Assembly: GCA_937936785.1 (NCBI GenBank)
Contig: CALDDQ010000015.1
Location: 1-64,000 of the forward strand
Direction: 5' to 3'
Length of the DNA stretch: 64,000 nt
Source of the DNA: an uncultured Endomicrobiia bacterium
Lineage (GTDB): Bacteria > Elusimicrobiota > Endomicrobiia > DTEH01
Part shown: positions 12,892 to 62,584 of the stretch, piece by piece
Position numbering within the stretch: position 1 is the stretch's first letter
Layout: each line of letters opens with the position of its first letter
Made by a program: the position numbers and the translations under genes
The notes under the pieces: generated by a model
Databases searched by the model: none
Seen by the model: the letters and a program-made list of their open reading frames with translations, nothing else
What the model was told of the DNA's origin: nothing

Positions 12892-13149
12892 ATGTTTGAC
12901 AAACTTAAACAAGCAAAACAATTGTTAGAACTACAGTCACAACTTAAGAAAGAAATAGTTGAATCAGAAAAAAATGGTATAAAGATTGTGATAAATGGCA
13001 AACTTGAAGTTGAAGAAATAATTTTAAATCCGTCATTAGATGTAAAAGAACAGGAACATTTATTAAAAGATTGTTTTAACGATGTGATAAAAAAGATGCA
13101 AGTAAAATTAGCACAGAAGATGGCAGGAATGCCGGGTTTGGGGTTGTAG
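12892..13149 (+). CDS. YbaB/EbfC family nucleoid-associated protein
   Basis: This is an 85-residue DNA-binding protein of the YbaB family. The N-terminal helix (MFDKLKQAKQLLELQSQLKKE) precedes the central strand-helix region VVINGK-like KIVINGKLEVEEIILNP, and the C-terminus MAGMPGLGL is typical. It is shorter than the usual 100-110 residues. A strong GGAGG lies 11 bases upstream, marking high expression. In many bacteria ybaB lies beside dnaX and recR; neither is seen here. Confidence 0.88.
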   Translation: MFDKLKQAKQLLELQSQLKKEIVESEKNGIKIVINGKLEVEEIILNPSLDVKEQEHLLKDCFNDVIKKMQVKLAQKMAGMPGLGL

Positions 13150-61243: not shown

Positions 61244-62368
61244 ATGTTGGAAAACAAAATGGCACAAGATACTCATGCTGTAGAAGACTTATATGACGAA
61301 ATAAAATCCTATGGATTTAATATAGAGAGTATAGTTTCTGGAGATGTTTCTGCACCAAAAAATATTAAAGAAAAAGTTGACAAACTAATTTCTTTAGACC
61401 AAAATTTTTATACAAAATTATTACAACAGTTTGTTTCAGAAGATTTTGAAGAAGAAGAAGCGAAACGTTTATGGTTTGAGATTTTGTCTCACAAATATTC
61501 AATTTCAGAAAAACTTGGACGAAATGTTGGACTAAAAGTTGCATTATTAGATTATTTAGAGAATATAAAAGGTATAATAAAATCATCAAAAATTATTGAA
61601 GAGGAAGAATTTATAAAAACATTAAAAATGGCTACAGTAGATCCTTTGACAGGTTTATATAATAGACAACATTTTTTTGAATTAGTTAGAACAAGAATTC
61701 GTCAGGTTAAACTTTACAGTATTGCATTTCTTGATCTTGATGGTTTTAAACTATATAATGATGCAGAAGGGCATCAGGCAGGTGATTTGATTTTACAAGA
61801 GTTTGCTTTTATGTTAAAAAATAGATTTGGTTCGGAAAATAATATTGTTGGAAGGTATGGGGGAGATGAGTTTATTGTTTGTATGTTAGGTTTAGGGAAA
61901 GAGAAATCTCAGCAACAAATGGATGAATTTAGAATTTTAGTACAAGAACAATTTTCTGCAGTGAAAATTACTGTTAGTATTGGAGTTTGCGAATATCCTA
62001 ACGATGCAAAAGATTTATATGAACTTATTGCAAAATCAGACGAACTTTTGTATAGAGTGAAAGAATTTGGTGGTAACAAAGTTTTTAGGTTAAGAACCAT
62101 AGTTTTTGATTATTATCCACAACCAAATCAAAAATCTAAAGAAGTTTCTGTAGTTGGTGATTTTAATAACTGGGATCGTAAGCAAGGTATGATGGAGTTT
62201 GTTGAAAAAGAAAATAAATGGACAAAAAAGTTGTTACTTAAACCGGGCAATTATAGATATAAATTTTTAATAGATACAAACTTTTGGCAAGTGGACAAAA
62301 ATTCAACTAAGTTTTCAGATGATGGTTTTGGTGGGCAGTGTTCTGTTTTAACAGTATTAGAAAAATAA
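61244..62368 (+). CDS. diguanylate cyclase with C-terminal glycogen-binding (CBM48/AMPK-like) domain
   Basis: The 374-residue protein has an N-terminal helical region of unknown type (about 1-125), an intact GGDEF domain (LTGLYNRQHFFEL, then RYGGDEFIVCML), and a C-terminal domain at about 290-374. That domain reads EVSVVGDFNNWD, NKWTKKLLLKPGNYRYKFLID, matching AMPK/CBM48 glycogen-binding folds. No RxxD inhibition site precedes GGDEF. The start may also be ATG 61259. It follows nrdR by seven bases and precedes the histone gene. Confidence 0.87.
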   Translation: MLENKMAQDTHAVEDLYDEIKSYGFNIESIVSGDVSAPKNIKEKVDKLISLDQNFYTKLLQQFVSEDFEEEEAKRLWFEILSHKYSISEKLGRNVGLKVALLDYLENIKGIIKSSKIIEEEEFIKTLKMATVDPLTGLYNRQHFFELVRTRIRQVKLYSIAFLDLDGFKLYNDAEGHQAGDLILQEFAFMLKNRFGSENNIVGRYGGDEFIVCMLGLGKEKSQQQMDEFRILVQEQFSAVKITVSIGVCEYPNDAKDLYELIAKSDELLYRVKEFGGNKVFRLRTIVFDYYPQPNQKSKEVSVVGDFNNWDRKQGMMEFVEKENKWTKKLLLKPGNYRYKFLIDTNFWQVDKNSTKFSDDGFGGQCSVLTVLEK

Positions 62369-62401
62369 TAATATATTTTTAAAAATAGGGGGAATAAAAA
62401 G

Positions 62402-62584
62402 ATGTCTGAAATATTGGTAGTGGTAAGTAAAATAAAAAAAATGGTTAAAGAACAAGGATTAAGAACAGGAGAAGATTATATAACAAATTTGTCTGCAAAA
62501 GTAGAAGGTATGATTAAACAATCAGTAGAAAAAGTAAAATCAGAAGGCAAGAAAAAAACTCTTGGAGCGGAAGATTTGTTGTAA
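62402..62584 (+). CDS. bacterial histone (single histone fold)
   Basis: This 60-residue protein looks like the small bacterial histones typified by Bdellovibrio Bd0055. Helix 1 is ILVVVSKIKKMVKEQG (4-19). The RTGEDYITNLSAKVEGMIKQ helix (21-40) is the long central helix. The KKKTLGAEDLL end corresponds to the conserved K-T-x(3)-E/D-L close. A very strong Shine-Dalgarno (GGGGG at 62388-62392) suggests abundance, as expected for a DNA coating protein. No DUF1931 pseudo-dimer is formed; it is a single fold. Confidence 0.8.
   Translation: MSEILVVVSKIKKMVKEQGLRTGEDYITNLSAKVEGMIKQSVEKVKSEGKKKTLGAEDLL

Follow-up and report, generated by a model that had tools for sequence, protein, structure and literature searches.

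Histones are DNA-packaging proteins that were long believed to be missing from bacteria. Near the end of the DNA analysed here (the window, 64,000 nucleotides from an uncultured Endomicrobiia bacterium of the phylum Elusimicrobiota), a short gene had been read as a single-fold histone resembling Bd0055, which raises the questions of whether the gene does encode such a protein and whether its product would contact DNA as the solved relative does. Among bacterial histones, HBb (Bd0055) and HLp are the only ones given as both structurally and functionally characterised in PMC12701072. As described below, the Elusimicrobiota histones offer a phylum-wide natural experiment, in which both main DNA contacts of HBb are replaced and two families have no histone, and they permit a direct test of the residues that govern bending, coating or wrapping.

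Gene, ribosome binding site and homology

The coordinates that the original prediction gave for a 60-residue open reading frame (Table 1) were confirmed, the product being MSEILVVVSKIKKMVKEQGLRTGEDYITNLSAKVEGMIKQSVEKVKSEGKKKTLGAEDLL (60 aa, pI of 9.3). The DNA is A/T-rich, as had been stated (28% G+C in the window), and the strong GGGGG site was also found: AGGGGGA lies a few bases 5' of the ATG with a Shine-Dalgarno (SD) duplex energy of −9.3 kcal/mol, which is equalled or exceeded in only 2 of the 56 longer genes of the window. The 16S rRNA of the same genome ends in ...GGATCACCTCCTTTT (CCTCC-type), so that pairing between the site and the anti-SD involves one G-U. SD-like motifs also precede most of the histone orthologues, and abundant production of the protein is a reasonable inference from the strong SD. 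TTAACA-18-TATATT, just 5' of the gene, is at most a candidate promoter, since the scan did not exceed chance and yielded 8 sites, about as many as in shuffled sequences (5.6 ± 2.6).

Table 1. Positions of the histone gene, its parts and other features in the window.
Feature	Position	Strand	Remarks
Histone gene	62402..62584	+	60 aa, α3-truncated single histone fold; stop codon 62582-62584
Shine-Dalgarno site AGGGGGA	62387..62393	+	Pairs with the CCUCC 16S tail of the same genome, one G-U
Promoter-like TTAACA-18-TATATT	62348..62377	+	Candidate
Helix α1, residues 8-16	62423..62449	+	Invariant S9, K12, K16; near-invariant K10
R21, loop L1	62462..62464	+	Archaeal "sprocket arginine" position (HMfB R19; HBb N22)
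Helix α2, residues 24-48	62471..62545	+	AlphaFold2 model
Loop L2, K50-K51-K52-T53	62549..62560	+	One residue more than HBb; KT DNA-contact motif
One-turn α3, residues 56-59	62567..62578	+	E57 replaces HBb R57; D58 of clamp
GGDEF diguanylate cyclase gene	61244..62368	+	C-terminal AMPK/CBM48-type glycogen-binding domain
YbaB-type nucleoid protein gene	12892..13149		

When the single sequence was searched against the PDB with phmmer, chains of HBb/Bd0055 from Bdellovibrio bacteriovorus were the best matches (8fvx, E = 1.2e-7; 8cmp, E = 1.3e-7), followed by HLp (9qt0) and HTkC (9f2c), and a profile of 17 sequences gave E-values of 1.7e-12 for HBb and 8.5e-6 for HLp. HBb is the nearest solved relative by sequence, with 42% identity, and the proposed Bd0055-type resemblance is borne out by these matches. 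No Pfam or NCBIfam model was matched when these were searched with the single sequence. Taken together with a length of only 60 codons, that missing match would be compatible with a short spurious frame, a reading to which we assign a negligible chance and which was rejected in view of the PDB matches, the strong SD, orthologues 55-82% identical in 81 of the 295 Elusimicrobiota genomes, and dN/dS values well below 1 (about 0.1-0.25 against relatives where dS was estimable). The gene is thus under purifying selection.

Predicted fold and class membership

An earlier AlphaFold2 model made from 17 sequences was weak (pLDDT of 74) and gave no structural match, which was remedied by an alignment of 77 relatives; the resulting model (mean pLDDT of 83.5) has three helices (Table 1), and the chain ends two residues past D58. 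In Foldseek, the top match of this model was DNA-bound HBb (TM 0.90, rmsd 1.3 Å), and the leading nine chains all belonged to HBb, HLp and HTkC (TM 0.80-0.90). The single-fold bacterial histone of the original prediction is therefore recovered as an α3-truncated histone fold, and the two outcomes named as contrary to it, a predicted structure lacking the fold and the absence of any match to bacterial histone families, both failed to appear.

According to Schwab et al. (2024), α3 histones have an α3 cut to 3-4 residues and an α2 that is 4-5 residues shorter than in nucleosomal histones. In the model, α3 has 4 residues, forming one turn where nucleosomal archaeal histones have three. The L28-T54 span of HMfB, which is 26, corresponds to 23 in the present protein and to 22 in HBb, so that the shortening of α2-L2 relative to HMfB is 3 by span count, one less than in HBb. 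The bacterial dimer category was defined through sequence clustering, and our assignment to it comes from the best PDB match, which was HBb by a wide margin. Among 86 distinct histone sequences of the phylum, the α1 lysines are conserved (K12 and K16 in 86, K10 in 85 and K13 in 81), and the RKTxxxD (RD-clamp) site reads KKT-x4-D, with T53 and D58 as its invariant residues (D58 kept almost without exception) and Lys replacing Arg in 84/86.

The protein shares with HBb (PDB 8FVX, 8CMP, 9EZZ, 9F0E; TM 0.84-0.90) its length, the VVxSKxKK N-terminus, the α1 lysines, a short α2, a one-turn α3, the KT motif and the final D. The α3-truncated fold is also shared with the face-to-face (FtF) α3 histones HLp (Leptospira perolatii, 9QT0) and HTkC (Thermococcus kodakarensis, 9F2C), which are 28% identical and structurally the next after HBb (TM 0.80-0.81). 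This likeness, and a basic residue in all 86 sequences (K in 81, R in 5) at position 44, which aligns with the tetramer residue R49 of HLp, would fit tetramers that wrap DNA as HLp and HTkC do. Such an assembly is nevertheless unlikely, given that, of the two residues conserved for tetramerisation at the C-terminal end of α2 in FtF histones, the Arg is mostly Lys and the Asn (HLp N53) is E or D at position 48 in most sequences, that the sequence similarity to HBb is far stronger than that to HLp, and that Schwab et al. (PMC11390915) put the Elusimicrobiota histones among the predicted dimers.

Since that study and Hocher et al. (2023, PMC10627809), where histone genes are described as persistent in Elusimicrobia, already report Elusimicrobiota histones of the same phylum and group, the protein belongs to a known kind. 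It adds to an already described group and is not a new system, the residue differences set out below being a testable refinement, and it is presumably one of the published Elusimicrobiota bacterial dimers or a direct orthologue.

DNA-contact residues

The comparison with the DNA-binding residues of Bd0055 had two sides. The HBb contact residues S9, K10, K12, K16, K52 and T53 are retained in 85-86 of the 86 sequences, but the L1/L2 contacts differ: N22 of HBb is Arg (R21) in 86/86, R57 is Glu (E57) in 85/86, and R51 is Lys (K51) in 84/86 and Arg in the other 2. T8 is Val (V8 here) in 66/86, L1 is one residue shorter than that of HBb, and L2 is one residue longer across the histones of the phylum. 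Because part of these loci had been found via motifs that include E57, the residues were recounted on 39 sequences from genome searches independent of motifs, where R21, E57 and K51 were each present in 39/39. In simulations of HBb, N22 had the highest and R57 the second-highest DNA-contact count (PMC11317129). The same paper calls the contact residues conserved in related histones, Elusimicrobiota included, a statement that is not borne out at N22 and R57 by the phylum sequences analysed here. Neither the present species nor the R21, E57 and L2 changes are described in the consulted parts of PMC10627809 and PMC11390915, and the R21/E57 changes are not stated in the consulted parts of the other literature.

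In a hand alignment with archaeal nucleosomal HMfB (1A7W), anchored on the α2 leucine and the KT motif, R21 aligns with the sprocket arginine R19 and E57-D58 with E58-D59 at the start of α3, so that R21 and E57 would both be archaeal HMfB states; the roles of HMfB R19 and T54 are treated in PMC10627809. HMfB differs in its longer α2, full α3 and N-terminus. HTkC likewise has Arg at the L1 position. Since relatives from Lindowbacteria, Brocadiia and one further bacterium have the Arg together with Ser at position 57 and no L2 insertion, Arg in L1 appears to be common, and E57 with the extra L2 residue is probably the signature of the phylum. HBb may then be the odd one out, the alignment giving no direction of change. 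A tentative extension, which we hold to be possible but on balance doubtful, is that the Elusimicrobiota dimers form a distinct sub-type with an archaeal-style L1-L2 contact (R21 with T53, a K-D clamp and E57) in place of N22/R57 of HBb, and with a DNA geometry that differs from the HBb bend. The exact DNA-bending geometry of HBb should in any case not be presumed for the Elusimicrobiota histone.

Gene neighbourhood and other nucleoid proteins

The genes stand in the order NrdR, GGDEF-CBM48, histone, NusG-II and heptaprenyl diphosphate synthase I (HprI). The GGDEF-CBM48 gene ends 33 bp upstream and NusG-II lies 30 bp downstream on the same strand, a spacing that could suggest a role outside chromatin, such as that of a regulator, either sequence-specific or acting as a heterodimer, with a link to the GGDEF, NrdR or NusG-II neighbours. 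Adjacency to GGDEF and NrdR is kept in the same family only, the backbone-contact residues are conserved phylum-wide, and a single histone gene was found in the genome when a second one was looked for, all of which makes that role very improbable. Because the NrdR/GGDEF side is limited to one family and the NusG-II/HprI side occurs in few genomes, the histone is a stand-alone unit with varying neighbours across the phylum, as fits a general nucleoid protein. An operon-coupled role was rejected, the synteny not being conserved.

The YbaB-type nucleoid protein that had also been noticed in the window is indeed encoded there (Table 1), but unlinked, at 49 kb from the histone gene. The genome has this one YbaB and two HU-family proteins. 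Nearly all genomes of the phylum have HU-family genes (269/290), and two of them occur in this histone-bearing genome; the histone therefore supplements HU and does not replace it.

Proposed function

We consider it likely that the protein is a chromosomal nucleoid protein of the α3-truncated bacterial dimer group. Probably produced in quantity from its strong ribosome site, it would form a handshake homodimer via α2, and the putative dimer would bind the DNA backbone with no sequence preference through S9, K10, K12 and K16 of α1 and the paired loops L1 (R21-T22) and L2 (K51-K52-T53). Most likely it would bend or coat DNA alongside the HU-family proteins. For HBb itself, both binding and bending of DNA in vitro have been shown (PMC11317129), and the protein makes up a major part of the chromatin (PMC10627809). 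Against a role like that of HBb stand the replacement of its two leading DNA contacts by R21 and E57, the latter acidic at a position that is basic in HBb, and the change of the clamp Arg to Lys.

Distribution in Elusimicrobiota and beyond

The histone orthologues of the phylum occur in 54 of its 90 genera. By a hand tally that joined family labels with the genome search, two families (f3 and f13) had a histone in 0/77 genomes each and a third (f16) in 2/45, whereas all others together had one in 79/96. Whole families thus live with no histone, and the protein is not universally essential in the phylum. Their small genomes (mostly 1-2 Mb) and dense sampling suggest that f3 and f13 may correspond to Endomicrobiaceae and Elusimicrobiaceae, two host-associated families, and the apparent lineage-wide absence perhaps reflects loss in host-associated clades.

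One genome of the phylum (G038, L018:1501-1668) carries a second, divergent histone of 56 aa beside the standard copy, with 36-38% identity and an RKT motif. A search of phage records returned no match, and a single IMG/VR contig was matched, IMGVR_UViG_3300032401_001693 (101.8 kb; L126:10001-10177), on which a stand-alone 59-aa histone lies 3.5 kb past a terminase large subunit and is 71-75% identical to the nearest cellular Elusimicrobiota copies. Because the published "phage histones" carry a fused C-terminal domain and have no RxTxxxD motif, the gene on this putatively viral contig looks like a captured histone of cellular type.
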